A stretch of DNA of 64,000 nucleotides from Phorcus lineatus (lineage: Eukaryota > Mollusca > Gastropoda > Trochida > Trochidae): NCBI GenBank assembly GCA_921293015.1, contig OV121095.1, forward strand, positions 36,243,484 through 36,307,483, written 5' to 3'. The translations under genes and the position numbers were made by a program. Positions 6,601-63,644 of the stretch are shown piece by piece (the stretch's first letter is position 1; each line of letters starts with the position of its first letter). The notes under the pieces were generated by a model. That model worked only from the letters and a program-made list of their open reading frames with translations. It was not told the origin of the DNA and made no database searches.

Positions 6601-7860
6601 TGTGTCTTTTTGGTAACAGTCGATACTGCGATCAAATGACACTATTGATTAAGTTTGGCATATATGACTCCAACAACTCACGGAGTGGCTCTTTAAGACA
6701 ACCCACTAGTCAAGGATGATTGGTTTAGAGTGAGTGAAAAAGTTGTTGTTTTCAGTTTGGGCAATATTTCAGCTATCAGTCGCCACATGACTGGTTTTAA
6801 CACCAATTGTTTTAGAGCTTGTTAAAATCTTTAAGTATGATAGCTTATAAAATATTTCCTACTTAAATTGGCCTTTGGAACAGGTACAGATACCAAAATA
6901 ATACACTGATAAACAGTTATAGTTGAATTTAAGGGAGAAGCTGATCTCAACATGTTTTAATGTGTTGAAAAAAAAGTTTCGAAAGTTTTGAAAGCTTTTC
7001 TAAAGCATAAACATTTGATTTGTTGAACTAAAGGCTAATTTATTAAGGGAATATTGGTCAATGTAAAAATAACTAACTCACTAACCCATATAATTGTAGA
7101 CCTGCAGAGAATCTGGGATTTGTCACTGACAATAACATCCAAACCACATAAAATTCTAGACATGCAGAGAAAGGGTTAAAGTTACCCACCTGAACATATA
7201 GTCTCCCATCCTTTTCTGGCAGTATTCTGTACTGGTGCACCCTAGACTGGTATCTGAAACAAACAAACAATCCAACATTGAGCTGTGATATCCCAGCTCG
7301 TAGTCTTAATTGCCACCTTCATATATTTTTTCCCCCATTTCACATAAGATTGATGAAATTAATAAAAACTCATGAAGTCAATTATATCAGTCACCAAATA
7401 GAAAAAAATCTATAAAATCATAAGCACACAAGAATCTCAATGCTACCACATAAATAACATCCATATGTAACCTTTTTCTGTGTTTATCTCTGGAAACATT
7501 TTAAATCAACAGGTTTTTATTTCATTTATACCCCTGTTTACATTCTGGAAAGTTCATACTTAATACTAACTGAATTAGATATTAAGCGTTCTAAAATACT
7601 ACTGCTTTAATTTATAAGTTATTGGTTAGTTTTTTGTTAAATTCTGACACGACTTACAAACTTATCTGTTTAATCGTTTACTTCCCTGATGTCAAAAACA
7701 TTTTTTCTAAAGCTTTAACTCACAAGAGACACAAGACGTAAGCGCCAGCCAATGATTCACTGTCCCGTAACAGGAAGCTGCCATCTTCCCGAGCCTTCAT
7801 CAGAAGGTCCTCCGCATGGAGACGCGATATCCCCTTGTGGAAACATGACGTCCCCGACAT
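509..7860 (-). CDS. INPP5D: SHIP-type SH2-domain inositol 5-phosphatase, N-terminal 211 residues (gene continues past the left edge)
   Basis: Five exons (7860-7724, 7253-7190, 2640-2493, 1423-1279, 649-509) join in phase into 211 residues plus two bases of the next codon. Residues 1 to about 104 are an SH2 domain placed directly at the N-terminus, as in SHIP proteins: GSFLLRDSES holds the phosphotyrosine-binding Arg32, VHQYRILP is strand D with His52, and LVCALKKPVP closes the domain. Residues 105-150 are an acidic linker. Residues 151-211 (FLSNFARLDLS to QHLLQVAGKGLQ) resemble the helical segment that follows the linker in vertebrate SHIP1. The family removes the 5-phosphate of PI(3,4,5)P3 at the plasma membrane and damps PI3K signalling. 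The catalytic domain is not in the window, so activity cannot be judged. INPP5D versus INPPL1 cannot be separated here; invertebrates usually have one SHIP gene. Confidence 0.87.
1279..1423 (-). CDS. INPP5D: SHIP coding exon 4: acidic linker
   Basis: A 145-nt exon with an acceptor ending TTAACCAG and donor GTGAGT. Residues 117-164 start DEEDIFEDFVVPSAPYLP and end FGFLSNFARLDLS. The acidic run followed by prolines resembles the low-complexity linker after the SH2 domain in SHIP1. Both boundary phases agree with the neighbouring exons. Confidence 0.8.
1424..2492 (-). other. SHIP intron between coding exons 3 and 4
   Basis: No coding sequence seen. Around 1755-1835 there is GTATAAGTCGAGG, a G9 run, then GGGTCGACTTATATATG. 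This inverted pair (TATAAGTCGA / TCGACTTATA) probably marks a DNA-transposon end. The rest is AT-rich unique sequence. Confidence 0.35.
2493..2640 (-). CDS. INPP5D: SHIP coding exon 3: C-terminal half of SH2
   Basis: A 148-nt exon following acceptor TTTCTTTCTTTCCAG and ending at donor GTATCA. It reads SEGNVDPVRFSNIDDLIQGY through LVCALKKPVPVDRP (residues 68-116), which matches helix B and the last strand of SHIP SH2 domains. The acceptor lies in a 75-bp repeat, so decoy acceptors sit upstream of it. Confidence 0.87.
2636..2990. repeat. Degenerate 75-bp tandem repeat spanning the exon 3 acceptor
   Basis: CTGGAAAGAAAGAAATACTAA recurs with divergence, with CTGG at 2641, 2740, 2815, 2890 and 2964 (steps of 99, 75, 75 and 74). 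Each unit also carries a TCATGGATGTCATGAAT-like part. On the minus strand every unit keeps TTTCTTTCCAG or a relative of it, so the true acceptor of SHIP exon 3 is one member of a small acceptor array. Confidence 0.8.
3790..4140. repeat. Degenerate 88-bp tandem repeat, about 4 copies
   Basis: GCCCTTCAGATGACC occurs at about 3939, 4027 and 4114, each followed by TTGATTGGTTA-like sequence, ACATCTCTATGG and ATATTTCCTATAACT. An older unit is visible from 3790. It lies inside a SHIP intron; no splice signal is conserved in it. Confidence 0.75.
5561..5584. repeat. Poly-C run, 24 bases
   Basis: An uninterrupted C24 in a SHIP intron, so the transcribed RNA carries G24. The exact length is prone to assembly error. 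Confidence 0.9.
5742..5770. repeat. (ATG)n microsatellite
   Basis: About nine ATG units following CAACAACAAAAACAATAACA-type simple sequence. Confidence 0.9.
6220..6696. mobile_element. TTAA-type MITE with 15-bp terminal inverted repeats
   Basis: AGAGCCACTCCGTGA (6224-6238) is exactly inverted at 6678-6692. The right end is followed by TTAA and the left end is preceded by TTAC, consistent with a TTAA target duplication with one mutation, as in piggyBac-type elements. The 469-bp interior has no open frame and several CpG-rich words (GACGCGCGCCA). Relatives start at 30,970 and 61,577 in the opposite sense. Confidence 0.8.
7190..7253 (-). CDS. INPP5D: SHIP coding exon 2: SH2 strands C-D
   Basis: A 64-nt exon between acceptor TTGTTTGTTTCAG and donor GTGGGTAAC. 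Its first base completes the split Leu codon and the next 21 codons read YQSRVHQYRILPEKDGRLYVQ except for length limits (first residue Tyr47, last Gln67). The His in VHQYR is the conserved strand-D position next to the phosphotyrosine pocket. Confidence 0.87.
7724..7860 (-). CDS. INPP5D: SHIP coding exon 1: start codon and first half of SH2
   Basis: An acceptor (CCTATTACAG, read on the minus strand) precedes base 7900, leaving 40 nt of leader before the ATG at 7860-7858. This ATG puts the SH2 domain at the very start of the protein, the usual SHIP layout, and has A at -3. The 45 complete codons end in YVLCL plus TT, then donor GTGAGT. The leader is open in frame upstream of the ATG (13 codons ending RRIPKK), so an N-terminal extension from an upstream exon is possible. 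The first half of this exon is repeated twice just upstream. Confidence 0.88.
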
Positions 7861-8218
7861 CTTCTTCGGGATCCGTCGCTGTACTATCTTCCCATAGGTT
7901 CTGTAATAGGAGAAATCATCATCAACAATTATGTTTATTGAAATTAAGAACGTCCTCCTCATGGAGACGACATATCCCGCAGTGGGAACATGACATCCCC
8001 GACATCTTTTTTCTGCTGTACTATCTTCCCATAGGTTCTGTAATAGGAAACATTATCATCAATAACTATGTTTATTGAAATTAAGAACGTCCTCCTCATG
8101 GAGATGAGATATCCCCTTGTGGAAACATGATGTCCCTGACAACTTTTTCAGGATCGGCCGCTGTACTATCTTCTGTAATAGGAGACATTATTATGAACAA
8201 CTGATTATTGAAATTAAG
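7806..8218 (-). repeat. Tandem partial triplication of SHIP coding exon 1
   Basis: Three units of 143, 137 and 133 bp (7806-7948, 7949-8085, 8086-8218). Each has the acceptor CTATTACAG, the AGATAGTACAGC leader, the first SH2 codons and about 40 bp of upstream intron. Unit 2 keeps an ATG and reads MSGMSCSHCGICRLHEEDV. Unit 3 has the ATG changed to TTG but still reads SGTSCFHKGISHLHEEDV. Neither extra unit contains a donor, so each is an exon start without an end. Only unit 1 runs into the rest of the exon. Confidence 0.88.
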
Positions 8219-24899: not shown

Positions 24900-26040
24900 A
24901 CTCCCTACTTATACAACCCTCATCATGTAAGACTTGGGTAATAGTCAGTAAATCCAATATACAATAATAATCACCTCTTTTTTCGGTCTGTGTTTTTTTC
25001 AAAATTTTTTGTATGAGCAGCACACCTGAGAATCATTTTGTAATCACCTTGTCAGAAATTTGTTGGGGCCATTTTGGAAAAAAAATTCTGTATTTTCTGT
25101 GGTTCCAAAACAGTATGTCATATATAATTAAAGGCTGTTTTCTTTACACCACAGAGAGATAGTTACACCTGTGTCTGCTAAATCTGACGTGGAAGCCCAT
25201 CCATTTGCAGCAAGGATATTTCCCCCCAGCATTCATAACTGTCGTGATGTAAGTCTTGGATGAATGCCAGTACATCATACACACAATGATAATGAGTGAC
25301 TGCCTTTTAAAACCATAGATACAGCTTACAAATTCACATATATTCTGTAAGCACTGTCAGAGACCGTCCATCCATTTGCATTCAGTATATATTTTCCTCA
25401 CTCACTACCACTGTCATACTATAAGTGCTGGTTCCATGCCAGTTTCTAAAAGACAATAATGTTATTTAACACATGTATGTGTAAGCACTCTATCAATCTC
25501 CTTTTGTTAGCTTTTCTCTGTCTAATTCAATTCTCTTGATCTTTTTTGTGACAAAGTAATGTTGCTTACTATGCATGCTTTTGAACACAACACAAACACT
25601 GCTAGACAAGGTTTTGTTCACAGTGCATCAAGAATTTCTCCTCCCATTGCTTTGTATTGTAAGTATATATACAAACAGCCTTTGTCAGTAGAAGGTGTCG
25701 TATAAAGCAAGTGCTTGTTTCTTCCAAGTACAGAGAGACAGGAACACAAGTGGAAAGAAGCTTGTTGCAAATCCACTTGTGATGAGGATGTCTCTGTTTC
25801 AGATATCTTTTACAAGGGTCATGATGTAAGCTCTCGTTTTACCAATAAACCTACCTCACAATTAAGATGAGGTTAAATGTTCATCAATAGAACTTTAACA
25901 CATGTACTCGTTTGCCACTCTGTCTGACTAAATGGATCAATGAAATATCTGCTCTCTTCTCCACTTCAAACAGAACTATCACGATGTAAGAGCTGGAACA
26001 ATGCCAGAATAATAACGCTGTTCTTGTTATTCTTAAAAAC
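24900..26040. repeat. Old long-period tandem repeat (about 160-180 bp)
   Basis: The phrase ATGATGTAAGWCTTGG with ATGCCAGT and CAATAATAAT-like words recurs near 24,925, 25,248, 25,427, 25,820 and 25,985. CCATCCATTTGCA recurs near 25,198 and 25,369. Divergence is high, so unit number is uncertain (6-7). Confidence 0.6.
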
Positions 26041-27129
26041 AAAATCCATGAAATATTTCCTTGAATATTGATAAAATAATTCAGCTGAAATAATCCATCA
26101 TATCATGCACACATGCTCAGTGAGGTAACTGTCGGAATATCTGACTGCTATCACCCAGCCAGTGGTTATTGATGTATATCACCCCAATTTGTGATCAGAT
26201 AAGCATGTGATTGATATTTGAGCATCAAGGCAATCATTGCTTGATCTCTAGGCACATATCAATCTAGCACACTTCAAGATCCAACTACAATCTGTCTCGG
26301 TCCAACTAAGATACTCATGGAGCCTTTGAAGATGTAAATCAGTCGTCAAAGAAAACTTTAACCCTTTTCGTTTCTGAAACCAGACAGTTCTGTCTCAATT
26401 TTAAGCAAAATCCGTGTGGATCTATCAGAGTTATATTTCAGTCATTTAAACCCAGGAGTGCACAATTAACCCTATGATGCTGGGGTAAACACACCTCGGC
26501 ACACTATCTCACTTTGGCCTTAAAAGATGAAAATGTCAAACAGTTAACCATGCAAGGATAGAACACTTAACCCCTCAATGTCTTGATGCACAGAGCACAG
26601 CAAACACATCTGGCTTTGGCAGGTACGTCATTAACATCTTAAATCAATATAAAAGTATGAAGAGCACTTCAACGAAGGAATAGTTCAGGATTTACATATA
26701 CCTATGTCAGGTAGAGTCAGTCCATAGATCACACTAACACACTAAGTGTGATGACAGAAAAACAGCTTGGCATATGCATCTGACTCTGGCTTGTAGAGAG
26801 TTAAGACTTAGCAAGAGCCAATGAGCACACTTTAACCTAGCAATAGCCTGCATCAAAGACTTCTCAGAGTGAGTATTTCTTTTGATAGTGTAGATTTGCT
26901 CTGTCAAGTCACCAAGCCCCTGGCAGATCCAGGTATAAGTAGGAGCAGTGAGCAGACAGCAGTACTATCAGATTCTCTCTATCTCTATCTCTCTCTGCAG
27001 AGCCAGGAAGGAAGCAGTGTGAGCTGTGCCAGCATCCTCTGTCTAGCTACACTGTAGAGAGACGGTGCAGAGGGGAGCAGACTGGACAATACCTAGATGT
27101 GGTAGGGTGAAATATAAGCACTCCTACTG
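26041..27129. other. Intronic stretch, nothing firm recognised
   Basis: A CT-rich tract ends TCTCTCTCTGCAG at 26,986-26,999, an acceptor-like site on the plus strand with no exon evidence after it. ACACATCTGGCTTTGGC and CATCTGACTCTGGCTTG suggest an old local duplication at 26,600-26,800. Confidence 0.35.
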
Positions 27130-27240
27130 GATTTGGCCAGAGGGATATCTCTTGGCTGAATCGGTAGAGTGTAGGACTCTCACCTGGAGGTCCTGGGTTT
27201 GAATCCCGAGGGAGGTGATCTCACAATCACTTCTGTTACA
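27130..27240 (+). mobile_element. tRNA-like SINE head directly before the 60-bp satellite
   Basis: CTTGGCTGAATCGGTAGAG (box A) and GGGTTTGAATCCCGAG (box B), about 35 bp apart, form a tRNA-like promoter. It ends in GGTGATCTCACAATCAC, and the satellite begins right after ACATAAACAATACC. It differs from the SINE family at 11 kb. Confidence 0.7.
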
Positions 27241-29690
27241 TAAACAATACCTAGATAAACAACACCAAGCTAGACAATACCTAACTAGACAATGCCTAAT
27301 GAGACAATACCTAGCTAGAAATTACTTAACTAGATAATACCTAAATAGACAACACCAAGCTAGATGATATCAAGCTAGACATGCAATGCCTAACCAGACA
27401 ACACCTAGCTAGAATGACTTAACGAGTCAATATCAAGCTAGACAATGCCTAACCAGACAACACCTAGCTAGAAATTACTTAACGAGTCAATATCAAGCTA
27501 GACAATGCCTAACCAGACAACACCTAGCTAGAAATTACTTAACGAGACAATATCAAGGTAGACAGTGCCTAACCAGACAATACCTAGCTTGAAATTACTT
27601 AACAACGGTAGACAATATCAAGGTAGACAATGCCTAACCAGACAACACCTAGCTAGAAATTACTTAACGAGACAATATCAAGGTAGACAGTGCCTAACCA
27701 GACAACACCTAGCTAGAAATTACTTAACGAGTCAATATCAAGCTAGACAATGCCTAACCAGACAACACCTAGCTAGAAATTACTTAACGAGACAATATCA
27801 AGGTAGACAGTGCCTAACCAGACAACACCTAGCTAGAAATTACTTAACAACGGTAGACAATATCAAGGTAGACAATGCCTAACCAGACAACACCTAGCTA
27901 GAAATTACTTAACGAGACAATATCAAGGTAGACAGTGCCTAACCAGACAACACCTAGCTAGAAATTACTTAACGAGTCAATATCAAGCTAGACAATGCCT
28001 AACCAGACAACACCTAGCTAGAAATTACTTAACGAGACAATATCAAGGTAGACAGTGCCTAACCAGACAACACCTAGCTAGAAATTACTTAACAACGGTA
28101 GACAATATCAAGGTAGACAATGCCTAACCAGACAACACCTAGCTAGAAATTACTTAACGAGACAATATCAAGGTAGACAATGCCTAACCAGACAACACCT
28201 AGCTAGAAATTACTTAACGAGACAATATCAAGGTAGACAGTGCCTAACCAGACAATACCTAGCTTGAAATTACTTAACAACGGTAGACAATATCAAGGTA
28301 GACAATGCCTAACCAGACAACACCTAGCTAGAAATTACTTAACGAGACAATATCAAGGTAGACAATGCCTAACCAGACAACACCTAGCTTGAAATTACTT
28401 AACAACGGTAGACAATATCAAGCTAGACAATGCCTAACCAGACAACACCTAGCTAGAAATTACTTAACGAGACAATATCAAGGTAGACAGTGCCTAACCA
28501 GACAATACCTAGCTAGAAATTACTTAACGAGACAATATCAAGGTAGACAGTGCCTAACCAGACAATAACTAGCTAGAAATTACTTAACTAGACAATATCA
28601 AGGTAGACAGTGCCTAACCAGACAATACCTAGCTTGAAATTACTTAACGAGACAATATCAAGGTAGACAATGCCTAACCAGACAATACCTAGCTTGAAAT
28701 TACTTAACTAGACAATATCAAGCTAGACAATGCCTAACCAGACAACACCTAGCTAGAAATTACTTAACGAGACAATATCAAGGTAGACAATGCCTAACCA
28801 GACAACACCTAGCTTGAAATTACTTAACAACGGTAGACAATATCAAGCTAGACAATGCCTAACCAGACAACACCTAGCTAGAAATTACTTAACGAGACAA
28901 TATCAAGGTAGACAGTGCCTAACCAGACAATACCTAGCTAGAAATTACTTAACTAGACAATATCAAGTTAGAACATGCCTAACCAGACAATACCTAGCTA
29001 GAAATTACTTAACTAGACAATATCAAGTTAGAACATGCCTAACCAGACAACACCTAGCTTGAAATTACTTAACAACGGTAGACAATATCAAGCTAGACAA
29101 TGCCTAACCAGACAACACCTAGCTAGAAATTACTTAACGAGACAATATCAAGGTAGACAGTGCCTAACCAGACAATACCTAGCTAGACATTACTTAACTA
29201 GACAATATCAAGGTAGACAGTGCCTAACCAGACAATACCTAGCTAGACATTACTTAACTAGACAATATCAAGCTAGACAATGCCTAACCAGACAATACCT
29301 AGCTAGACATTACTTAACTAGACAATATCAAGGTAGACAGTGCCTAACCAGACAATACCTAGCTAGAAATTACTTAACTAGACAATATCAAGCTAGAACA
29401 TGCCTAACCAGACAATACCTAGCTAGAAATTACTTAACTGGACAATATCAAGGTAGACAGTGCCTAACCAGACAACACCTAGCTAGAAATTACTTAACGA
29501 GACAATATCAAGGTAGACAGTGCCTAACCAGACAACACCTAGCTAGAAATTACTTAACTAGACAATATCAAGCTAGAACATGCCTAACCAGACAATACCT
29601 AGCTAGACATTACTTAACTAGACAATATCAAGGTAGACAGTGCCTAACCAGACAATACCTAGCTAGACATAAGACAATACCAAACTAGAC
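27241..29690. repeat. 60-bp satellite, about 40 copies, built from four 15-bp monomers
   Basis: The 60-bp unit splits into CTAGACAATATCAAG, CTAGACAATGCCTAA, CCAGACAACACCTAG and CTAGAAATTACTTAA, four related 15-mers. The left border (27,241-27,420) has irregular 14-15-bp monomers not yet in the 60-bp order. Some units are 65 bp (ACAACGGTAGACAATATC in place of ACGAGACAATATC). Sixty is divisible by three, so one frame stays open and gives a 20-residue periodic peptide; the 65-bp units shift it. Confidence 0.96.
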
Positions 29691-30965
29691 GATACTACTG
29701 TGGTTAAATTAGTTACCATATTCAAACTGAGGAAGAGAGCCTGGACAATACTTCATGGCTGTGGTAGAACATTTAAAACTATATTAAATAGTTAGAGATT
29801 CTGCAGTTTTCACAATTGATGTTTCATCAGTTTAGTCAGTGGAGAATTATTCTATATATATGACAGTGTTTGATACTCTCTTTTGATTAATTGATGAGTA
29901 ACAGTTACTGGGCATACATTCATGATTGGACTTATTCTGATTACAGGAAACCGTTTAACCGTTTAACCGTTGAACCGTGAGCTGATATTAAAATTAACCT
30001 CCTGATTATGTTAAAGCAGATATTCTGCTAGTAAGTCAGACAAGTCTCTTTCTAATCTGAATAACCATTGTTTGATTTGGGGTATTTCACAGAAATTAAA
30101 TTTTTTTAGATAGAGCCATTGGCTCTGTACAATGGCTCTGCAGCTCATCAGTCTTTCAGGAGTTATCATTTGAGATCAAAGACTTGCATATGAAAATATC
30201 AGGTTTGTAAGGTTTGTTAAAAAATATGTACAATAATTATAACTTTCTGGTCAAAGTTTGTCTGCTCAAGTTTTCTTCATTCAAGTGCAAATTTATAGTT
30301 AACAAACTGTAAATTTAAGTTCAATGACAAAATTACATATGGCTTCACAAAAACAAACCGAGATTTTGGCAATTAAGTATATTTTCTAAAGCTCCACAAG
30401 GTTCCTTTAAAAGCATATTCAGTTGCAATCATCTCTGAACAATGATGAATTATAATTGTAAAAATAAAGTACTTTTGGTGCTTTCTCAATGGTTAAAGTT
30501 GAAGAATATAAGGAAAATTAGGAAAAATACAAAATCAACTAAAATCTGCTGCAGAATTATTAAAACTGATTCATTTAATCTAGGAGGGAGTAATATTCAG
30601 GCAGAGACATGGTTAGGTTGAAGTGGTGATTTGGTTTGCCGTTTTAAAGATTTTGTTATTAAAGGGACAGAGACAGGGAGTAAACTGGACATCTATTGTA
30701 TATAATTCATATCCATTGTCATATTGGCATGTGATATAAAAGAGCAATGATAGTGTTTATGATAGAGAGGGGACACTACAAATAAAACATGAGTAACAAC
30801 ATCCATTGTTCCGGTAATTATCATCCATATTGACCTTCTTGTGTTTATTCAGTTAACTCAACATTCCAACAATATGAAATCATTAACAAAACTATTTTTA
30901 CTTCCTCTTTACTTGATGTAACATTGTGATATTTAGGAGCACACTATCTGCAACAATACAAATCA
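29691..30965. other. Intronic stretch, nothing firm recognised
   Basis: Contains a 10-bp repeat, AACCGTTTAACCGTTTAACC, near 29,948-29,980. A TTAAAGGGACAGAGACAGGG word at 30,659 resembles the TTAA-MITE end that follows at 30,966. Confidence 0.4.
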
Positions 30966-31630
30966 TTAAAGGGGCACAGAGTATGTTGTTGGAGTCCAAT
31001 ATGTCAAACTTTATAAATGGTGTTATTTTTTCGAGAAGTAGTGGTTCTTCCAGAATATCACAATCCTAATGCTCATGAGGCATCAGTCTAGTGACAATAA
31101 ACGGGTATAAGTCATGATTTGTTTTAAACATATCTATTCATGAAAATATACCATTCATGAATGGATTGGCCAAAAAGCTCTTAGGTGCTTATTTTAAGGT
31201 CGCTCCGAAGCAATTACATATGAGAAAGTATATATATAAATTTATTGAAGTGACACATATCTGATTGCAATCATAGCTTCATTGATAGTGGTTATGCATG
31301 GATAACATTTCGTTTGTTTGGTAGATGATAGAAAGTTGTGATTTGTGATAAAAAAACGGACAATAGTGCGTGCCAATTATTCAAACAGAAATCTCTAAAC
31401 TTATTGACAGCAGACACATACATAATCAGAGGTTGATATTGTTAAGGAGGTCGTTTTACTAATATGCATGTTAATTGGACACAGAATATCATCCTTTAAC
31501 ATTTTTAGGGCCCTTTTCCAATTATAATAGAAAAAAAGAAAATATCATAATTTTGGCATCTTAGAGATAACGATGCAAGCTTAGAGTTGTGATTTGAACT
31601 TAGCTCAGGTTAAGGTATTTTAGCTCTGGC
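30966..31630. mobile_element. TTAA-type element, relative of the MITE at 6.2 kb (right limit uncertain)
   Basis: TTAA then AGGGGCACAGAGTATGTTGT followed by TGGAGTCCAATATGTCAAAC matches the reversed MITE end near 6,692 and the copy at 61,577. Further shared blocks follow (TTATAAATGGT, CAAACAGAAATCTC, TTGACAGCAGACAC). The far end is not clear; the match fades by about 31,630. Confidence 0.6.
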
Positions 31631-36589: not shown

Positions 36590-37690
36590 TAAGAGATATA
36601 ATTGAATGACCTTATAATGTCATAGGAGAGTTTCAAATATTCTTCACTACTACCTAAAATACAATACACTACTTTAAACGACAACCTTCACCTGGGTGTA
36701 GACTATCGAATGACAAACCTGGACAATAAATATCTGAGAAGAAATAATCACATGACCACTATCTGCACAGTGGAAATTCTAACATAGTGATTCTTCACTA
36801 CAGTTTCTTTTATTACCCATATGGTTAATCATAGGTGGTTACATATTTTCAATATGCGCACATGTGCACATAATCACTTTACCTAGCGACCATTGTTTCA
36901 GCGCAACGTCCTGTATTTCGTCATCTGTGACTTCATAAAACCACTGTTAGTGATGCCTCAGTAGCTGACCGTCACAAGGGAACCAGGCCGTTTCTGATTA
37001 TTTCCATGCACTTTGGATGGAATATCATCAGTAATAAAGAGATAATTACATTTGGAAGTACTAAACTTGTGCAAATTAGAAAATAAGCCTCCCCTCACTC
37101 TGGCAATACAAAAATTCAGACTCATTTCATAAAAGTCACATGATACACTTCCTTGGGAATCATCTCTATACATCAACATTCACACTAATAACTTTACAAA
37201 CTTAAGACAAATGTCTCAGCCAAGAGCCAAGAATTGAATGACAAGCTAAGTGTACAGTATCCAATGAAAATAAACATTCTGAAAAAAAAATCCAAGCGAC
37301 AACTTACTGTACCGGAAGAAACAGAACAGTCTAAAACATTCCTCACAATACTTTTTTATATCCACACAAACAGACCCTACAAACTTAAGCAAAGTTTTTA
37401 AGAATCAAAAGGACAAGCTCAGCAGAAAGTATCAAACCAAAAAAAACATAAATATAATCAAATGACCACTTACTGGACCGGAACCAAGAGAACAGTATAA
37501 AACATTCTTCACTATACTTTTTTATATCCACACCAACAGTACAAGACCCTACAAGATTTTAAGAATAAAAACGACAAGCTCAGCGGAAAGTATCAAACCA
37601 AAAAAAACCATAAATATAATCAAATGACTACTTACTGGACCGGAACCAAGAGAATAGTCTCAGACATTCTTCACTACACTTTCTTGTATA
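36590..37690. repeat. Tandem repeat of about 164 bp carrying a splice donor
   Basis: Three clear units have minus-strand donors CA|GTAAGT after exon ends at 37,636, 37,474 and 37,308 (steps 162 and 166). They share AAACATTCTTCACTATACTT, TTATATCCACA and AAGTATCAAACCAAAAAAAA. Weaker relatives (GATTCTTCACTACAG near 36,790; ATTCTTCACTACTACC near 36,640) suggest older units. Confidence 0.8.
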
Positions 37691-37861
37691 TCCACATTAC
37701 CACGTAGCATCCCATGTACACAAACACTACAAGGCACAGATGCAAAGAAGCCTGTAGCAGATCACCACGAACCAAAGCAGGGGTATCAAGGTACAGCCTG
37801 TCTGTGTGAACCTGTCCAGTCACAGGGCTATAAACAGATGGTGCTATCTCTATCAGGGCAC
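37636..37861 (-). CDS. Putative exon: C-terminal part of a 74-residue single-span membrane protein, or a 5' exon of SHIP
   Basis: On the minus strand an acceptor (TACTAAATTTTGGCAG) is followed by 61 open codons: ALIEIAPSVYSPVTGQ, then RLYLDTPALVRGDLLQ, a hydrophobic span LHLCLVVFVYMGCYVVMWIY and KKV-stop (stop at 37,676-37,674). The entry phase matches the 67-nt exons at 46.1 and 45.9 kb. Starting at their ATG, the joined product is 74 residues with one membrane helix near residues 52-71. The exon may end at the donor CA|GTAAGTAG after 37,636, which would put the stop before a junction. I do not recognise the family. A second ATG at 37,667 opens a frame that would enter SHIP coding exon 1 in phase. 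Confidence 0.5.
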
Positions 37862-38224
37862 CTGCCAAAATTTAGTAATCAGGCCTTATTAAATCAAATA
37901 ATCACTTTATAAGCGATTTATTACATTAAATTCTCATTAAATTTTCCAAAGCACTCTATTCCCTGCTTCCTGAAATGTTTTAATTTTCCATTGGCAGATC
38001 AATGGGGGGGTGAGAGAGGTATGGTGTACAGGGGTTTTAGAAACTCCCCCCCCCCCTTTTAAGGTTCCTATGATTGAGTAGCTTTTATGTCTAGTGTACT
38101 ACCAGTGAAAAGTCTCTTTAACAAAATCCCATTATCTACCACTGTCTATGGTTTGTTTATTAATTGTTTTTGAAAATAATGATTCTTTATTGTCCTCATT
38201 GCTAAGTTAATTTGGATATTCACC
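37862..38224. other. Stretch without recognised gene
   Basis: Short G7 (about 38,005) and C12 (about 38,047) runs. No other feature. Confidence 0.4.
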
Positions 38225-38412
38225 ATGTGCCTATGGGTACCCAGCAATGTCAGTGCCAGTTCAAACATTTAAGCCTTATGATGCCGAGTGTCAAACAAGG
38301 AAGCAGCATCTCCCACCTTTTAATGACTTTTGGTATGACATGACCAGGAACTGAACCGGGGCCTCTCAGGTAATGAGCGGACACCCTGCCGACTGAGCTT
38401 CATACCCTCAGC
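38225..38412 (-). mobile_element. tRNA-derived SINE, second family
   Basis: On the minus strand the tRNA-like head has AAGCTCAGTCGGCAGGGTG (box A) and CCCCGGTTCAGTTCCTGGTC (box B). A body follows with GGTGGGAGATGCTGCTTCC and GCTGGGTACCCATAGGCAC. The body differs from the 11-kb family. Confidence 0.75.
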
Positions 38413-40009
38413 TCAGTTTTATGGTTTATTCAAAAAGCTCCTAAATTCTCTTTTCATCATAAACGATTTTGTTTAATGAAATTTGAGCATCACATATCAA
38501 AAGTTCAATTATTCAATTACATATTCTATGTACAAATACAGCTTCCCTCTATACAACAGTGATATCAGTCCTTATAGCCACCCACACTGATAATAATATA
38601 CTGAACACCACAAGAAATGCCAGTAAGAAGATAGAGGAATCATGATGAATTTTGTTAAATCAACAGTTTTCTGCCTCTTATTCTCATTGGCGTCATTTTG
38701 AACAATTTAACATATTTACAATTGAACCACAGCAGCTATCAAGTTTAATAAAGATTTCCCATAGATGTTAAGAAGTTAAAGATTTTGTGTTTTCTTTTCA
38801 TTATATTCATGTATAAATCTTATATTTCCAGCAGTGTTAAAAGCAAAGGATGGTATGTATCTGCCTTCTATGTTACATGAAATGTACTCATGAATTAAAA
38901 TTGAATAACAACAGAAATATATTTTATGGTACAACTTTTTAAACTTTCAGTGCCTTCTTTACCTTTGGAATTGACATTAATAACAACTAGTTAACAAAGT
39001 AAAATGCCTTAGATTGAAAACTGAAGATGGAGTATTCCAAAGAGGATAGCAGACAAATCGAAATACAGTAGATATTTTATTTCAACAAAGAATATTTTTC
39101 ATTTCCATGAATTGTCAAATTATTCTTAAATATTTAAAATGATAATCTGAATAGACTTCGAAGCCTGACAAAGATGTAGAGAAATACTATTCATGCACAG
39201 TGAAATTCTCAATAGCATACTCATACATACATACAAACAGAAAAAATGCCTGCATAAAGTTCAGATTCCAGAGTATGAGATCCCTGTTAAAACTCCAAGA
39301 CAGACCAAAGCACCAATTAAAAAGAGCAGTGCAAGATCAACCATAGCAGAGGCTAAGAAGCTTAAAAAGCTTGGTACAAGATTGGAGATAATATAAGGAT
39401 AGCATTAGCAAATCCTACCTATTTATCATTTTCTTCCAGATGCAAAGCTTATGCTCTAGTCTCCCTTGTTAAGTATCATGACAAGAGCCACTGATCTAAT
39501 CTTTCTGTAATATTATAGGATACCAACAGGGACATGGTGATAAATGATAAAATATTCAGTGATATACAAGTTTATATCCCCTACTTATGATTACAAACTG
39601 ACACAACTTATCAAATATTTCCCATACCAGGAAGCTGTCGCACCCAAATGGAACAGACAATCAAACTAATGTCAATCCTTTTTTTTATTTCAAAAAGGAA
39701 GGATTATGCATTTTATCTAAGAATGTAAGAAACTCTGGGGGCACTGAGTGATATAAAAAGATAACGGCATTCATAATGCCATGAATACACTCAATTTTTT
39801 ATTCAATTTTGGGATGTATAGAATGTCTTTTTATTGAATATTAATGACAGTGTTTGAAAAAACTAAGCTACAATTTCATAACCATTCTTTGCTTTCTTTA
39901 TAAACATTTTAACTGACACAAACATTTTAGATATTGATTAATGTAAAATATAATGTGCTTAGTTTAACAAAAATGAGAATTCAGAAAGAATATTAGGGGG
40001 GTCACCTAA
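38413..40009. other. Stretch without recognised gene
   Basis: AT-rich. A 67-codon lysine-rich open frame at 39,193-39,396 (plus strand) has no motif or splice context and is not called. Confidence 0.4.
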
Positions 40010-42800
40010 TGTTTGCCCACTTTATCAATTTTGAAATACATAGTCAAACGCCAAAAATATATCACTGCACTCTTCACCAATTCAAGCCTATCATGATTAG
40101 AAGAACAGCTTAACCAAATCATTTATGAAAAATATGCATCTAATTGGGAATACAAATATGAAAATATATTAAATGTTTCCCCACTTTAACCCTCAAGCCG
40201 CGGTTTACGGAATGGTCCGGGATGAAAGTAAACTACGCCGCAGTTAGCCTTAGCGAACCCCGGAAGCCGGACTTATAATCTGACGCATTTACTAATTAGC
40301 GCAATTGTACCATGTAGCGGATCCCGGAAAAAAATTGCAGGGCAGTCGTGTCGGTTGAACGCGTGTATTTTCGTTGCGGCTTTCGCTAAGCTGCCGATTT
40401 TTTCCCCGTTGTTGTTCTAAAGAATGGGGGCATATTTTCCGAAAGTTTTATAGATATTGGTCATATTTATCGTACCGAAAATATGCATTACAAACGCTCA
40501 ATTTTTCCCCACTACCCACCGGGCTTGCTATAGCCCTGGGGCTTATTGCTCCCCTCACGCACGAGCTTATCGAGCCGCGCACGTTATTGTTTGCTCAGGC
40601 GTGCGCACTCACAACAAAAGCACACCTTGCTTTCGCATGCCGTATGATCTAAACCCTTGGGCGGATTTCAATACAGGTGGGATCATTTGAAAGAGGAGAA
40701 AATTGTCTTTAATTCGATATAAATTACGAATATGCGCTACCTGAACTGAATATACAGCATGTGCTGTAAATGAGGTGATTTTTACATATTTTTAGTTTTA
40801 CACCATTTTGTCACACCAATTTTCACATGTGCTCAACTTATTTTGACAATTTTTATATTATAAGATAGAGAGAAAGATTGTCTTTCATTCCATGTAAAAT
40901 TTGTACATGCGCAAAAATAAATAAAGACACAGCAAGCGCCGCACAAAAAGCTAATTTCTCTATTCAAATCATGTAAACTGAACGGCGATTTTGACATGTG
41001 CCTTTATTTCGATCATATCTTCTCAACAGCTAGGCGTATTTTGAAATTGATTACCTCGTGATAAAGAAGGAATAATTGTCTTCGATTTGATGTAAAAAAG
41101 TTATATGCAGTATATAAAATAAAGATACAGCAAGTGCCGCAAAATTGCGACTTTTCTTTATTCTCTGTGTATTTACCATTTTCTCGCAGTTTATATCACA
41201 TAAACTTCTCGGGACATTTTGAAATTTCATATATCAAAATATAGAGAAAAGGATGATCTATATTTCCACATAAAATTTGTATGTAAACGAAAATCAGTAA
41301 AGACCCGACGAGCATCGCGCAAACAGGCAATTTCTCTATTCATATCTTGGTAACCGAGAAGCGATTTTTTCAACTGCTTTTTACACTTCATATCTATTTA
41401 ACGGCAGAGTGCATTATCAACATTTTTATATCACAATAAAGAGAAAAGGATCGTCTTCAATTCTATATAAAATTTGCAAATTACAATGAAACAATAAAGG
41501 AGCGGTAAGTGATGTCGCAATTATCAAAATCTGTTCTCAAATACCTGAGGGGACAATCTTTGCAAACTATACATATTCCAAACCAAGCGGTACATATTTA
41601 TCATTTTCATATCAACGTAAAGAGGAAATAAATACCTTCATTTTCATGTGTAATTTGCCCATATTTGCATCAAAATAAAACGTGTGGAAATTATGCGACA
41701 AATGTCGCGGTAAGGCGATTATCAAAGACTTTATTCACTAGCTTTACCCACGTTTCGTTGGTAATAACTTCTAAATACACAGCAAAAGATTATTATGATT
41801 TATTTATCCGTAAAGAAGAACAAATTGCCTTCAATTCCATATATAATTTGCATGTATACAAAGCGAATAACTTGAATTATAAAATTGGAAATAAAGACAA
41901 TTTCTGTTAAGTGTGAGTGTATTTTTCAGAGGGGATACCCCGCCTGCACGCGCTGAGCGCGTGCGTTTGCCCGGGGCTACTAGCTTAGTAATATTACTGT
42001 GGGGGTCAGAATGTTATCGGGGTTTATCACTACCCTGCTTTCGTTATTTATATCTTTCGTTTAGGATGGCATATCGTAATGAAATTTATCGTAAAATATA
42101 GAGCAATAAATTAGCTTCATTTCCGTATATAATTTGTCTATGTGCACTCAGTGATTAAATGATTTTATAGAGTTTGAAATATAGACAATTTTTGAATAAT
42201 CGTAAAATTCTTTCTAGACATATTTTTGTAATAATTTTTATATCGATGTCAAGAGGAACTATTCGCCTTTAGTTTCGTTTTGATTTCGCGCATGCGCTCT
42301 CACAATTTTAGAGTAACGGCGCTCGAATTAAAAACAAGTTTACTTCGGTTATAGAAACCGTTCTAGGGGTGATATAAATTTCATTCAAAGTGCCAGGTAA
42401 GTATCATCCATTTTTAATACGGTATTCGCCGACTAGTTTTGTAGACAACGATATTTACATCCGTATTTCGCCACGTAAACAAACCATATATTGGCAAAAC
42501 GGTCGCGACTCGCGGCACTGGAAAATTCAGCCACTGGTGCTAATTACGCATTAACGGTAGCGAGGCGAGTGCTTGAAAATTCAGCCACGGGGGCAAAACT
42601 GGTCAAAATAATATTCAGCAACTTGAGGGTTAAACATCAATTTTGAAAATACATACATGTAGTTACACGTTAAAGATCTGACATTGCTGCACTTTTCACC
42701 AATTCAAGACTACCATCATTAGATTAACAGCTGTAACAGGCACCTAAAACTTATAATTGGGAATACAAATATCCTAAAATATGAAACGTAAATATTGATG
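40010..42800. repeat. Diverged tandem duplication of about 175 bp, split by the TTAA element
   Basis: Left copy 40,010-40,189: CCACTTTATCAATTTTGAAA, CACTGCACTCTTCACCAATT, CTAATTGGGAATACAAATAT. Right copy 42,630-42,800: AACATCAATTTTGAAAATAC, CATTGCTGCACTTTTCACC, TATAATTGGGAATACAAATA. The element at 40,190-42,629 sits at the junction of the two copies. Confidence 0.75.
40190..42629. mobile_element. 2.44-kb TTAA-flanked non-autonomous element (piggyBac-like ends) with internal tandem repeat
   Basis: TTAA at 40,186-40,189 is followed by CCCTCAAG; the far end is CTTGAGGG then TTAA at 42,630-42,633. A TTAA duplication and ends starting CCC are typical of piggyBac-type transposons. No transposase frame is present: the longest frames (about 80-90 codons near 40,374-40,690) have no motif. 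The interior is CpG-richer than its surroundings. It holds about nine units of about 185 bp marked by AGAGGAAAATTGTCTTCAAT-like words near 40,696, 40,868, 41,062, 41,243, 41,441, 41,620, 41,812, 42,103 and 42,253. Confidence 0.75.
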
Positions 42801-43205
42801 ACCCTAAAGGCAAATAGCATGTTGTTAGATGATTGATAAAAAAGCGATTATGACAAACATAAGTGTTTTGCGCCAGTAGAAAGATGAACCTTACTTCTAA
42901 TAAAATGTCTCATTTATTTGAAAACTTATTTACGACAATAAATCATTGTTGTATAATGTCACTGTAGGTGTGCTTGATTTCTGGGTACGATCTATAATCA
43001 ATAAGTGCCCTGGACTCATAGCTAGGATCCAAAAGCGAGCAAGGAAGTATAAAACTATTGAGTTTTATGTTTGAAAGGGCTCTTTTTTACATAAACATAA
43101 TTAAATTTCACAGACTAACTTTGAATCAACCACAGTTCCCATGAAATGAATAAGTATTTGTGGGAAAGAGAGGGGGCGTTATGCAGAGGAGGAAATATTT
43201 ATTTA
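42801..43205. other. Stretch without recognised gene
   Basis: AT-rich, no motif seen. Confidence 0.35.
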
Positions 43206-43766
43206 GTTTTGTGGACATAAACTGTTTTCGAGTTTATTCAAGTTATTTCAGAACGATTTTGGTAAAATAGAAAAATCCTGCAATACTGTTTTGGCATTGT
43301 GCATTTCAGTGAAACTTTCAAGCTGCAGTTGGAATGTCCAAAGCTTACATGAAAAAAACAGAGATCAGGGCGGCGCTAACCTACGCTATAGAAAAGACGT
43401 TTAGTTAGAATGGCAAAATTATGGATCAAATGAATGATTCATAACGGTACAATAAGTTAAATAAAGTAAAGGGCGGGAGTACAGTCAAAACACAGTGATG
43501 ACACTCGTAGAAAGTTCCACATTTTTTTTAACTTTTAACTTTCTACGAGTGTCATCACTGTCTTTTGATGGTACTCCCCCCCTTTACTTTATGAAAAAAA
43601 CAAAGTAAAAGTTTGTGGACATAAACTGTTTTCAAGTCTATTCAAGTTCTTTCAAAGAGATCTTTTGTAAACTAGAAAAATCCTGCATACTTTTTTGGCA
43701 TTGTACGTTTCAGTGAAACTTTCAAGCTGCAGTTGGAATGTCCAAAGCTTACATGAAAAGAACGAA
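43206..43766. repeat. Direct repeat of about 155 bp flanking a hairpin insertion
   Basis: Copy 1 (about 43,206-43,356) and copy 2 (about 43,612-43,766) share TTGTGGACATAAACTGTTTT, TAGAAAAATCCTGCA, CAGTGAAACTTTCAAGCTGC and AGTTGGAATGTCCAAAGCTT. The hairpin at 43,462-43,591 lies between them. Confidence 0.88.
43462..43591. mobile_element. Foldback MITE
   Basis: TAAAGTAAAGGGCGGGAGTA, then CACAGTGATGACACTCGTAG and AAAGTT, is inverted as AACTTTCTACGAGTGTCATC and the matching end CCTTTACTTTA. The arms are about 50 bp with small mismatches and a 15-bp T-rich loop. Confidence 0.85.
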
Positions 43767-44229
43767 GTCATTTGGATTGTTTCAATGATTGGAAGCAGAG
43801 CGATACAGTGCTCAGAGAGTAGACTAGATTGACTTGAAGACGATTTCATCATCCTTGGTATATAACTCAAGCTTTATTTAAAAGATCTATAGGTAATCAA
43901 TACTAGAAAAACACTAGAAACAATCAAAAAACTTCTTCCAAGACGGAAAAAGAGTAAACTGCAAGATATTGCTAGAATTTTTAGAACTGTAATTTTAGGC
44001 AGAATTAAATCCATTACTCTTGACCCAAACTTTGAATTTTTTTATTTGAATTGCCATTTGATATTTCTAAAGTGGATTACATGCATTATCATTTTGAAAC
44101 ATATTGTTAAAAGAGACACTCCATTATTTTCATAATAAAGTGTATCTTTTAAGATTTCTTTATTTAGAAAAAATACTCTGCAACATGATGTTTCGTGAAG
44201 AATATCATGTTTTGTTTAATAATACTTTT
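43767..44229. other. Stretch without recognised gene
   Basis: AT-rich unique DNA. Confidence 0.35.
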
Positions 44230-44458
44230 TGTAGATAAGTGTTATAATAAAAACTGTTTAACTGTTGTCATTAACTATTTCTGATTAGTTCTAATTACTA
44301 ATTATGTTTGTAACTAATTGACTTACTAATCACGTTGTGGAGAAAAGTGTTATAAATTAAGATTGTTAGGTCATCATCAACTTCTATTTCTAATCAATTC
44401 TAATTACTAAATCATGTATGTAACTAATTGACTTATTAATAACACTTAAGATCATAAT
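44230..44458. repeat. Two-copy tandem duplication, about 112 bp
   Basis: GTGTTATAATAAAAACTG / GTGTTATAAATTAAGATTG are each followed by CTATTTCTGATTAGTTCTAA-type sequence, ATTACTAATTATGTTTGTAA and CTAATTGACTTA. Confidence 0.8.
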
Positions 44459-45832
44459 TACAATTTTATAGATAGATAGATATAAAAGTCAGAGATGATA
44501 GGTGCAATCAAATACCACATAGATATATTACATACATATTGATTATTACTCGTTTACACGGATTATAATTAATTCATTAGCTAACATAAAGCATGGCATG
44601 TAATGTAACGTATTAGTGAACATCAGAGGTTGTTGTAGCAAGATGTAAAATATACAGGATCTGAAATTTTTATCTTATACATATTTAATCATGAAATGTG
44701 CGATAAAATCAGTAATTAAAACATAATTTTTCTTATTTTATATATTTCTTTAAAATCTGGATAATCTTTTGGACAGGCTATGATATAATATTTTTATCAA
44801 TATTTTAGGCATAACTTTTTTACTGACAACTAAAACTCTGTAAATATAAATAACAATTTGGCAATGCTAAGCTTTTATCCTTAGTACATGTTTTTATCAA
44901 AAAATGAAACTATCAGTGATATTTCGACAACATTGCAAAACAATTGAAAAATTCAAATTAAACAATAAAATAAATCATTTTCCCCCCTTTTTTATTTTTC
45001 ATTTGTATTGCATGTCCAGACATGAAAGTAATGGAAACTGAACTTCTAAATAGAACACATGTTGTCAATTTTTTTTGATGTTATATAATTAAGTACTTAG
45101 TCATGAAATCTTTTCCTAAAGTTCAACTGTCAAATTGGTGACTGCCGGCCCCTGGCAATACAACACTTTCAACATTTCTTATGAAATGCTATGTGGTTCA
45201 TGAACTGAAATTTGAGTTGAAATAAAAATTCATGTCCTCAACTATGGAAAATATATTCTTTTAAAACTGAAAAGACTAACTTCAGATATCTAGACTTAAA
45301 AAAAAAAGCTTTCTTGACTTTAGATAATCACCTTTTTCAAATTGGTATTTTGGGAATTCCTTGAAAATGATAATCAGAATCAGACTCATATTATATAATA
45401 TTAATCGGATGGACGGTTTCTACTTCGATAACACTTTCCAGGTCTGTCATTCTTTACCATTTTTCCATTTAGTTGTGTATTAGCGTGTTTTCTGGACAAT
45501 ATATCTTGAGTTCAAGAAGTCAGAGTGTACAAATCATCAGAAATGTTGGTAAAGTGAGAAAACCCGTAGTACCAGTGTTGCTACATTATAGCCAAGCAAG
45601 GTTTTGAATTCTGAGTAAATGTCCAATTTTTTGGACTTTAAAGAAATTAGAAATATTGATTTTCAATTAATATCATTTTGCTAAAAAATTTAGGATTTCA
45701 TTTCATTTACTCCCCTATTAAGTATTTTAGATTATCACATATAAGAATCAATATCATGTATTTCTATCACTGTTTTATGAATAACTGTTGTATTGCCAAC
45801 CTTCATGCATATTCATGGACGTGTTACCTGAT
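44459..45832. other. Stretch without recognised gene
   Basis: Very AT-rich DNA with no exon-like frame on either strand. Confidence 0.4.
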
Positions 45833-45847
45833 AAAATATTGCCTTAC

Positions 45848-45914
45848 CTGCTAAACTGATTATAGGTAATTCAGCATTGCACATAGATAACTGAGCACTG
45901 ACTGGAGGGTCACT
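45848..45914 (-). CDS. Putative 67-nt exon, downstream copy
   Basis: Same acceptor, donor and length as the copy at 46,068-46,134. It encodes SDPPVSAQLSMCNAELPIIS then LA, so the two copies differ by Lys/Asn and Val/Ile. Using both would shift the frame because 67 is not a multiple of three, so they could only act as alternatives if coding. Confidence 0.5.
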
Positions 45915-46067
45915 CTGATACAAGTGAAATAGAATAAAAAATAAATGAAAAATGTTGAAAGATAACCTCCAACTGACTAAAGTTCTAAAACTCTAACTAG
46001 GAAGCATATTTACACAAACAAGTAGCAGACAATAGGCTTGTCATGTACCTCTAAAATATTGCCTTAC

Positions 46068-46134
46068 CTGCTAAACTGATTACAGGTAATTCAGCCTTGC
46101 ACATAGATAACTGAGCACTGACTGGAGGGTCACT
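46068..46134 (-). CDS. Putative 67-nt exon, upstream copy
   Basis: On the minus strand acceptor TTTCACTTGTATCAG precedes 46,134 and donor GTAAGG follows 46,068. The exon reads SDPPVSAQLSMCKAELPVIS then LA plus one base. The ATG inside (in TTATCTATG) has a poor context. The exit phase joins the 226-nt exon at 37,861 without a stop, giving SLAGALIEIAPS. The upstream frame is also open through the 5' exon at 47,248, but no in-frame ATG exists there. Confidence 0.5.
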
Positions 46135-46271
46135 CTGATACAAGTGAAATAGAATAAAAAATAAATGAAAAATGTTGAAAGATAACCTCCACCTGACTAA
46201 AGTTCTAAAACTCTAACTAGGAAGTATATTCACACAAACAAGAAGTGGACAATAGGCTTGTCATGTACCAC

Positions 46272-47247
46272 TGAACAATCCCTCTTTAAAGGAGTGAAGA
46301 ATATGTGCACCTAACCTGGTGTACAAACATAAATATCTATTGGGCATATAAAATTTATTTCTTCCCCTTTGCGTTTTTACCAACTATAAATTATTTGTTT
46401 GACTTTTATAAGAGTTTAACTATTTTAAGGTTTTGATAAGAACTGTAAATCAAATTTAATAAATGAAATATTTGTTATGAATATGAGTGTACGAAAATCA
46501 AACACTAAATACTTTTGCCTACTCATTGGTATGTCAAAAATACACAGACAAACTTAATTTAAAGATTTTTCATATAATAATTAATGAACCAAAGACTGCA
46601 GATTTTAAATAATCACTTTCACAAAAGAACACTGTTTTATATCAATATTCTAGAATAGCAATAACATGCAAAAATTTATGACATTAATTTTCAAATCACC
46701 ACTTGCTTCCTCATCTCTGTGATTTTAGCTTTAAGGAACAAACATCTGTGCATATGTATAAAAAGTATGGTAGATAAATGCTTAAATTTTTTTTAACAAA
46801 CTCCTAATAAATCACTTTTTAAAATATTTTTCTAATCAGATGATTTTGATCATCATGTATACACCACGTGAAGGTATGATTTAAGATATCGTATCACATA
46901 TGATAACAATGTTATCATTTCAGTTTCTTTGTGTAACAAATGCACAAAATTCCAATTGATCAATCACTTTATTGAGACACGACAGATACTTTGTTTCTTT
47001 TGTTTAAGAAAGGTAATCAACCTAATCCATTGTTTAGATTCCCCACGAGTGACAACCACTTTGTTTACAAAGGTACAGCGCAGACAACACTGATTTGACA
47101 GCTCTCGCTTCGACAGGCGACACGAGACGGCCACTGGGACGCGAGAAATTACGCGCCAGCCCTGGCAACTAAAATAGTTTAGGCTGCTGCTAATGTCAAC
47201 ACAATATTTCCTGAGCAACCAAACACAGAAACTGAAATCGCACTTAC
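46272..47247. other. Stretch without recognised gene
   Basis: AT-rich until about 47,030. From 47,060 the sequence becomes CpG-rich (GACACGAGACGG, GGGACGCGAGAAATTACGCG), which marks the edge of a promoter-like island. Confidence 0.4.
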
Positions 47248-47340
47248 CCAGCTATCTGTTAGAAATCTCCGTGATCTACCGCTGAACAGCGACTGTGAAT
47301 CGAGAAACAGGAAGTATTTCACGACATACCACGTGACCTG
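47248..47340 (-). promoter_or_regulatory. Putative minus-strand 5' exon and promoter (E-box, ETS site)
   Basis: On the minus strand GATAGCTGG|GTAAGTGCG gives a good donor after 47,248. Just upstream are ACTTCCTGT (ETS, 47,307-47,315) and GTCACGTGG (E-box, CACGTG at 47,330-47,335; GTCACGTG is also the core bound by MiT/TFE factors). The CpG-rich setting fits a promoter. The start site is not defined. The target is either SHIP through a 39-kb intron or the small membrane-protein exons below. Confidence 0.5.
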
Positions 47341-49655
47341 GCCTTGACCTATGACCTCCAGTCAAATGAAATTGGACTGTCATAGGCGCTATTTTTAAAT
47401 CCTATCAGCAATTATTTCTTCCAGTAGTCATCGAAAACATGATCGGCAATTTGTAGAAAAGAGCAACAATTTAATATGCTGTAAGATATTGATATTCTTT
47501 TTTAAAAAAAAACACGCATGACCCCCCTACAGAATCTGATTAAAATGCATAAACAGTATGATAAATATTCGCCTTTAAAATGAATAAATGAAATTACCAA
47601 ATAGATTTTGAAACTGACAATAAGTTTTGTTATTGATCAAATGAAAGATAATAATATCTTAAAGTAATTATAAAACGGTAGATACACCCCTCCATGACAA
47701 AAAAATCTGCTCACACAGTGGAAGGGAAATTTCTATGAACATTGTAAATAACTTTGGATATAAATCATTTCCAATTTCATGTGGTGTCCTTTTAGAGCTC
47801 ACGTCAATCGTTATTAATAGTTGTTATCCATCGGGAAAGCTGGCTATTGTTGCAAAAAGTCGTGATTTTGGACGAAAGAAACGGATTAATAACAATTCTA
47901 TCATATTTCTCGTAATGCATATTGTAGGTTGAGATAAGGTGGTGAGGGGGTAGTCCCCCATAACCCCTACAGCCCATAACCCCTACAGCCCATTACCCCT
48001 ACAGCTTATCAAAACAAGTTTATAGTCCACTGCACTGCTAATCTCTAGCTTGTTATCTCTCGCAACACAATGGACTCACCCAAACTGATTCTTTATTACC
48101 TTTGAGAGTGAAGAGAGGGACAAGACGGTTCAACCACGACACAATTTGTCTTTTTCATTTTTTTTATTTTGTCGAGAAGGTTCTTTCTTTCTTCCATAAA
48201 TACCCCTACAAAAAACATGCCCCACTTATATGTATATACATCCTCACCAAAAACATCCCCTTTAAATCGATTATAGCTTGGGGTCAGCCAGGCTCTTGAT
48301 AATGTTAGCAACAGTTACTGTTGTAAAGAAACACATATTTTTCTGAGATTATTAGTTCTCTCTAAGATAGGGACCTATCTTCAGTCTAATCAATAAATAG
48401 ATTTCATTTACAGCACAAATAATTTATGTATTTTACTCTTTGAAATTTACACTATTCACGAAAATTATAGCCTAGGAAAAATTGTAAAATGTCTTATAAA
48501 TAATGAGCTTTTTATGCATTGACAATCGTGAAAACTGTGTACTTATTTTGTCCAGTGTATTTAATGGTAAAATAGAAATGAAACGATCAATCACGTGTTT
48601 GCATACATTCAAATTCACTACACAGTTGCTACCTAATTTCTCCTCCTTTCCCTTTTGTTTTATCTCGGCTGTACCGCTATCACAAAGGTTAGCTACCGCT
48701 CAATCTGCTTAAACTAGCTGTAATTTTATACGTTCTGTGGTACGTAATGACGGATAATTAGTTTTAACTAGATTTGGTACAGTTAATTTTACCCTTAACT
48801 AGTAACCTTCAAAATGAAGAAATGGTTATCCGGAAACGTTTGTCTTTTCTATGGACATCACTTATATTATATGCCCTTCAAAGACTTCATAAAACGTATG
48901 GTTATGTCTTTTGTAATCTGTCTTATGGGAAGATACCTTTGGTATGTAATACAGTCAACTACCATTTTATGAAAAAAAACTGTTAAATATCTGCGTCATA
49001 TATATCTATAGCTTCATATTACTTTCATCATTTGACATACGCTAAAAAAAATTGTTTCTCTTTAAAATATGATTGCTAAAACGATGCAATAAATAAGCTA
49101 AACATATCCTTTTCAAACATATTTGATAACTAATACCGGAAACTTTACCACTGCTACTTTTTATAAATTATTTTATTACTGATTTAGTTCAAATGGGTTT
49201 TAATCCCTGAACCAGCTATGCATTTAGCTTCATAAACATCATACTGAACAGAAAGGTCTTCATATTATCGGGGCATATATCTCTCAATCCTAATTGAATA
49301 AATAAATATTTATATATCTATTTATTTATTGTATTTATCGTATAGGAAAACCTGAAATAGGTTAAACACAAATATTTTTGTGTTGACAATAAGTTAAATA
49401 CATGTATATCAAAGGTAGCCTACATTTCCATCAGGATAATTTTGAATACATTATCTGAACGTAATAATTACACAAATGCAGTTCGTTCTAAATGCAAATA
49501 TTTATTCTAATCTATTGATTTAATAGGTTATTGTTCATTCTACTTTTTTCAATTGTGTAACAAAGTTATTATTAAAAGGAAAAATCTCACTGAAATGAAC
49601 TACTAAGTAGAACATTTTGCTGAGATTCGAAACTACGCCATCAGCAACTAGCTTT
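47341..49655. other. Gap between the two divergent transcription units
   Basis: No exon recognised. At 47,957-48,006 there are three units of CCCATAACCCCTACAG. The rest is AT-rich with short frames that lack motifs. Confidence 0.45.
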
Positions 49656-49670
49656 ACATGAGACGTCAAG

Positions 49671-49680
<10 letters not shown>
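49656..49680 (+). promoter_or_regulatory. ATG16L1: ATG16L1 start region with CRE-like and YY1-like motifs
   Basis: GACGTCA at 49,662-49,668 is seven of eight bases of a CRE. CAAGATGGCGGC at 49,667-49,678 matches the YY1 consensus AAGATGGCGGC and contains the start codon itself. YY1 sites over the ATG just downstream of transcription start are known from many animal housekeeping genes, so the transcription start is probably close upstream. Confidence 0.6.

Positions 49681-63644
<13,964 letters not shown>

Follow-up and report, generated by a model that had tools for sequence, protein, structure and literature searches.

In the gastropod Phorcus lineatus the genes encoding SHIP (INPP5D/INPPL1, minus strand) and ATG16L1 (plus strand) are arranged head to head, approximately 42 kb apart from ATG to ATG, and the set of candidate exons described here lies between them. 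Do these exons form a gene of their own, do they belong to the 5' end of SHIP, or did they arise by chance? All coordinates refer to the window, which is the whole stretch of 64 kb of DNA that was analysed. A sequence-only reading of this window had proposed an undescribed small membrane-protein gene or, alternatively, hidden 5' exons of SHIP.

A short, lineage-restricted gene for a small membrane protein, with three exons on the minus strand of the SHIP–ATG16L1 interval, is tentatively preferred as the best single reading. The first of the two earlier proposals is thus kept as the likeliest one on account of the Markov score of its frame, the single copy of exon 3, the donor of exon 2 and the CpG-rich stretch upstream; the argument from continuity of the frame was not upheld, synonymous codon choice was neutral and no relatives were found in the collections searched. 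If real, the gene would add a small membrane protein absent from the searched profile libraries and would bear on the annotation of the SHIP–ATG16L1 interval. If not, the locus illustrates how easily two-exon ORFs of 74 codons form by chance in A+T-rich DNA.

Candidate exons and predicted product

The candidate exons are the following:

47248–47320, minus strand: candidate 5' exon, transcription start not fixed; donor GTAAGT at 47247 (4.9 bits); no in-frame ATG.
46068–46134, minus strand: exon 2, copy a, 67 nt; ATG at 46104–46102; donor of 8.6 bits.
45848–45914, minus strand: exon 2, copy b, 67 nt; ATG at 45884–45882; differs from copy a at two positions, with a residue changed at each.
37636–37861, minus strand: exon 3, 226 nt; 61 codons from the acceptor, then TAG-TGA at 37676–37671; possible donor at 37635.

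The sequence, the phase, the open frame, the splice-site motifs, the hydrophobic span and the duplication were read directly from the DNA. Both copies of the 67-nt unit were found where they had been placed on the minus strand (46134–46068 and 45914–45848), with the intact splice sites ascribed to them, tatcag before and gtaagg after each copy. The phase of exon 2 fits the 226-nt exon at 37861–37636, as claimed, and conceptual translation from the ATG of either copy gives 74 residues with a single hydrophobic span and KKV at the C-terminus. The two copies were also correctly described as differing at exactly two positions, one changing Lys/Asn and the other Val/Ile. The context of both start codons is weak, with T at −3 and +4, a point against the gene. 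The frame had further been reported as open back through the exon at 47.3 kb; it does run through this exon, up to a TGA at 47364, but contains no ATG there. The ATG starts of the model are therefore confined to exon 2 (46104 or 45884), and an N-terminal extension through the 47.3-kb exon was ruled out.

With fewer than 100 codons and one predicted membrane span, the frame has the size and the span of a small single-pass membrane protein. SMIM proteins, SERCA regulins and SERTM proteins are small single-pass membrane proteins of animals, and the candidate resembles them in its length below 100 residues, its one hydrophobic span, here at the very C-terminus, and its short gene. It differs from them in that its expression is putative and in that Pfam gave no match with E up to 10, so that no sequence membership in a Pfam family is shown. 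The ER retrieval signal KKxx consists of Lys at −3 plus Lys at −4 or −5 from the C-terminus; the product ends in WIYKKV, with Lys at −3 and −2 only, and does not carry this signal.

Searches for relatives

The 74 residues were compared with Pfam profiles, which gave no family at E up to 10 (HMMER filters apply), and with NCBIfam (bacterial and archaeal) and PDB, with no match in either. With the 61 codons of exon 3 as query, 149 stretches in GTDB genomes and 14 in IMG/VR fitted the search pattern and none was confirmed, this query being one protein that reaches close relatives only. The searches of the own genome covered 957.8 Mb in 74 contigs; the search for paralogues returned the locus itself and one match (E 5.5, 25% identity) that was taken as chance. 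The earlier statement that no family could be recognised holds for all of these collections: neither the own genome nor Pfam, NCBIfam, PDB, GTDB or IMG/VR yielded a relative. The only mollusc genome within this scope was that of the species itself, and for this reason the lack of relatives says little about conservation.

Exon 3 is single copy, since together with its flanks it matched only its own locus in the genome. A transposon origin of the exons was rejected, as exon 3 with flanks matched itself alone and exon 2 matched only its tandem copy. Scans of the 64-kb window with Rfam (gathering scores) and for tRNA genes gave no matches. No report of the candidate gene was found in a literature search, which is not proof of absence.

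Frame continuity and coding statistics

A somewhat unlikely account, and the closest competitor of the small membrane-protein gene, is that two splice-like units in an intron or between genes have a common open frame by accident, one of them having been copied by the 220-bp tandem duplication, and that no product is made. Continuity of the frame over three sites had been considered improbable by chance. This was evaluated by counting ORFs of two exons and 74 or more residues whose ATG lies inside an internal exon, with splice sites scored by simple animal-type matrices, in the real sequence and in 60 dinucleotide shuffles. At moderate thresholds (acceptors 2 bits below those observed, donors at least 4.9 bits), 52 of the 60 shuffles contained at least one pair, and the mean was 5.7 distinct pairs per strand versus 5 on the real minus strand and 3 on the real plus strand. 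The continuity argument therefore fails, and continuity alone is not evidence for a gene.

The strict thresholds were the scores of the observed sites and were thus fixed post hoc by the finding itself; with them, at least one such ORF appeared in only 2 of the 60 shuffles, which argues against chance. On the real minus strand only the candidate pair was recovered, twice, once per copy of exon 2, and on the plus strand none. The same thresholds gave 2, 8, 2 and 0 pairs on the four strands of the flanking 90 kb, a total of 12 that favours the chance account, although these flanks include real genes and a long ORF-rich stretch. The single unusual item in these counts is the very strong donor of exon 2, a score reached by 0.039 sites per kb and strand in the window and retained in both copies.

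Coding potential was assessed with three-periodic Markov models of order 2 to 4 and leave-one-out checks, trained on 29 BTB-domain ORFs of the same genome; these come from 30 BTB loci, one of which was excluded for having no ORF of at least 140 codons over the match. Positions 26000–31000 of the window, which hold a minisatellite, were excluded from the background sets. Compared with 144 held-out coding stretches, the 74-codon frame fell between the 24th and 30th percentile; among 555 stop-free ORFs, a set that includes real exons of the neighbouring genes and one flank with long ORFs, it was in the top 8 to 12%. In exon 3 this frame had the best Markov score of the six, which also counts against chance. 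The codon-usage score averaged 0.19 bits/codon in the training exons, too weak to be decisive, and the Markov models were used instead. Synonymous codon choice gave 0.002 bits/codon over the 74-codon frame versus 0.092 in the training exons; it fell below zero in exon 2 and was surpassed by two other frames in exon 3. This neutral result is on the side of chance, and so is the maximal segment score: exon 3 attained 15.9 bits, and 9 of 40 simulated 48-kb backgrounds reached at least 15.6 bits. Of 28 segments above 11 bits in the part of the window from 8.1 to 61 kb, three scored higher than exon 3, which ranked fourth; the fifth (15.8 bits) resembles an exon of the ATG16L1 coiled coil, as labelled by eye. 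Overall, the coding evidence for the 74-codon frame is modest.

Composition of the product and of exon 3 also speaks against chance, through two properties that are both unusual though mutually dependent. Mean hydropathy peaks at 2.18 over 19 residues, a value equalled or exceeded in 4.2% of 403 ORFs, with the ORF-rich flank again among the negatives. The G+C content of exon 3 is 47%, a value reached by 1.75% of the 190-nt stretches between 31 and 63 kb of the window.

Neighbouring genes and the SHIP leader alternative

The features that bear on the relation of the candidate to its neighbours are the following:

7723–7900, minus strand: first recognised coding exon of SHIP, SH2 domain; ATG at 7860.
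36809–36814, minus strand: AATAAA, which could make exon 3 terminal with a 3' UTR of about 0.9 kb, a rival to the donor at 37635.
37298–37696, minus strand: 162-bp tandem array of 2.4 copies, starting in the last codons of the ORF; it repeats the stop and the donor-like region in diverged form.
47051–47450, no strand assigned: CpG-rich promoter-like stretch; 20 CpG in 400 nt, observed/expected ratio of 0.98 versus a window mean of 0.43.
49671–49770, plus strand: probable first coding exon of ATG16L1, found with a motif built from the human protein; ATG near 49671, end of the exon provisional.

SHIP lies downstream of the candidate on the same strand, with its catalytic exons in the left flank together with a C-terminal exon that by eye resembles a SAM domain. 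The coiled-coil exons of ATG16L1 are at 61.1–63.7 kb (Pfam ATG16, E 3.6e-15) and its WD40 exons in the right flank. Human INPP5D and ATG16L1 are also neighbours, at 2q37 and in the other relative orientation, and the linkage may be ancient; one limited literature search found no report of it. At 7802–8149 the 5' part of the first coding exon of SHIP and an acceptor-like site are repeated 2.5 times with a period of 137 bp; the upstream copies retain the acceptor-like site, and the rest of the exon has diverged in them.

The stretch at 47051–47450 is located about 2.4 kb from the ATG of ATG16L1. By CpG count it is third of the 20 listed peaks, and the first two fall inside the repeat at 40.2–42.6 kb; an observed/expected ratio of at least 0.98 was found in nine others of these 20 peaks, four of them in one transposon. 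Inspection by eye also shows AGGTCA direct repeats, CACGTG and CTTCCTG in it. The CpG ratio and these motifs favour a minus-strand promoter at 47.3 kb, for the candidate, for SHIP or for both. A promoter of SHIP at 11 kb was set aside, as the CpG-rich stretch there has a tRNA-like part and by eye resembles a SINE.

Under the second alternative, which we judge rather unlikely, the candidate exons would be untranslated leader exons of SHIP or would carry an upstream ORF; the 47.3-kb exon would mark the SHIP promoter, and the 74-codon ORF would be incidental or regulatory. Like 5' leader exons of SHIP (INPP5D/INPPL1), the candidate exons are on the same strand as its first recognised coding exon and upstream of it; unlike them, they are 30 kb away and have stops in all three frames. 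The shared strand favours a leader, and an acceptor-like CAG 40 nt before the SHIP ATG suggests that an upstream exon exists. The position of the 47.3-kb stretch as the top CpG count of the window outside the 40.2–42.6 kb repeat, and the possible donor at 37635, would suit a leader as well. Against it, exons 2 and 3 cannot prolong the SHIP frame because of those stops, AATAAA is found downstream of exon 3, and no sequence evidence connects the candidate exons with SHIP. An upstream ORF of 74 codons is, moreover, generally expected to impede translation from a downstream start such as that of SHIP. The earlier suggestion of hidden SHIP 5' exons is thereby excluded as an N-terminal coding extension and survives as a possible untranslated leader or upstream ORF.

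The end of the transcript bears on the same choice. With 3.2 bits, the donor at 37635 has a score that is reached 1.1 times per kb and strand, and neither this donor nor the AATAAA at 36814 is decisive.

Proposed gene model

For the preferred reading, a small membrane-protein gene, we infer transcription, splicing, translation, topology and function as follows. The CpG-rich stretch at 47.3 kb would contain the transcription start, and a non-coding first exon, ending at 47248, would be spliced to one of the exon-2 copies, which would provide the start codon. Exon 2 would then be spliced to exon 3, adding 61 codons and the stop, and the transcript would either terminate at the AATAAA near 36814 or be spliced onward from 37635. 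In the predicted product of 74 residues, roughly the first 50 would be soluble and the C-terminus would form a single membrane helix with KKV as its last residues. Such a protein would resemble tail-anchored ones, sit in an internal membrane and perhaps serve a larger membrane protein as a small partner. Either copy of exon 2 would yield nearly the same protein; inclusion of both would shift the frame, with the second start codon left intact.

Duplication of exon 2

The duplicated unit is the following:

45830–46269, minus strand: tandem duplication with a unit of 220 bp; its two copies differ at 10 of the 220 positions.

Two of these differences are within the 67 nt of the exon and 8 in the 153 nt outside it; in these small numbers there is no sign that exon 2 is clearly more conserved than its flanks. 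The copies of the exon are identical at 65 of 67 nt, and the duplicate is recent. The window holds ten tandem arrays with a period of at least 70, one over the first coding exon of SHIP and one over the 3' end of the candidate ORF. Given this number, the duplicated exon needs no special explanation, a point in favour of the chance account, and its doubling looks like ordinary DNA duplication for the region. As 67 is not divisible by three, joining both copies breaks the first frame, which then stops at 13 residues; from the start codon of the second copy, all 74 residues can still be read.

The exon-2 pair consists of adjacent homologous exons with intact splice sites. In a study of human genes, tandem duplicated exon substitution events are described as rare and mostly ancient (Genome Biol Evol 2022, PMC9741552). 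The pair resembles those exons in being neighbouring and homologous and in its intact splice sites; joining both copies breaks the first frame but not the one from the second ATG. Unlike those events it is recent, with 65 of 67 nt identical, and its use is putative. If the gene is real, this would be a very young duplication of a start-codon exon and would allow the onset of mutually exclusive splicing to be observed. A more specific version, in which the lineage-restricted gene between SHIP and ATG16L1 encodes a membrane micropeptide and its duplicated start-codon exons are a newborn mutually exclusive pair providing alternative N-termini, is improbable.

Repeats in the intron and elsewhere in the window

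The intron between exons 2 and 3 contains the following element:

40186–42633, no strand assigned: high-copy element of 2.45 kb with the ends TTAACCCTCAAG...CTTGAGGGTTAA and TTAA.

From its ends and the TTAA target the element is presumably piggyBac-like. Among 3021 candidate places in the genome 40 were scored, all with at least 97% identity, and three genome copies are 98.7 to 99.0% identical to it. The near identity of the copies indicates that the element spread recently. Its listed ORFs of at least 90 codons are two, of just 97 and 92 codons, and it is therefore probably non-autonomous.

The same intron contains, at 43461–43592, an inverted repeat of 56 nt, with arms 93% complementary and separated by 20 nt. 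Elsewhere in the window, 27384–29667 is a 2.3-kb minisatellite of 60-bp units, whose long open stretches on the plus strand would encode repeats like RQCLTRQHLARNYLT.
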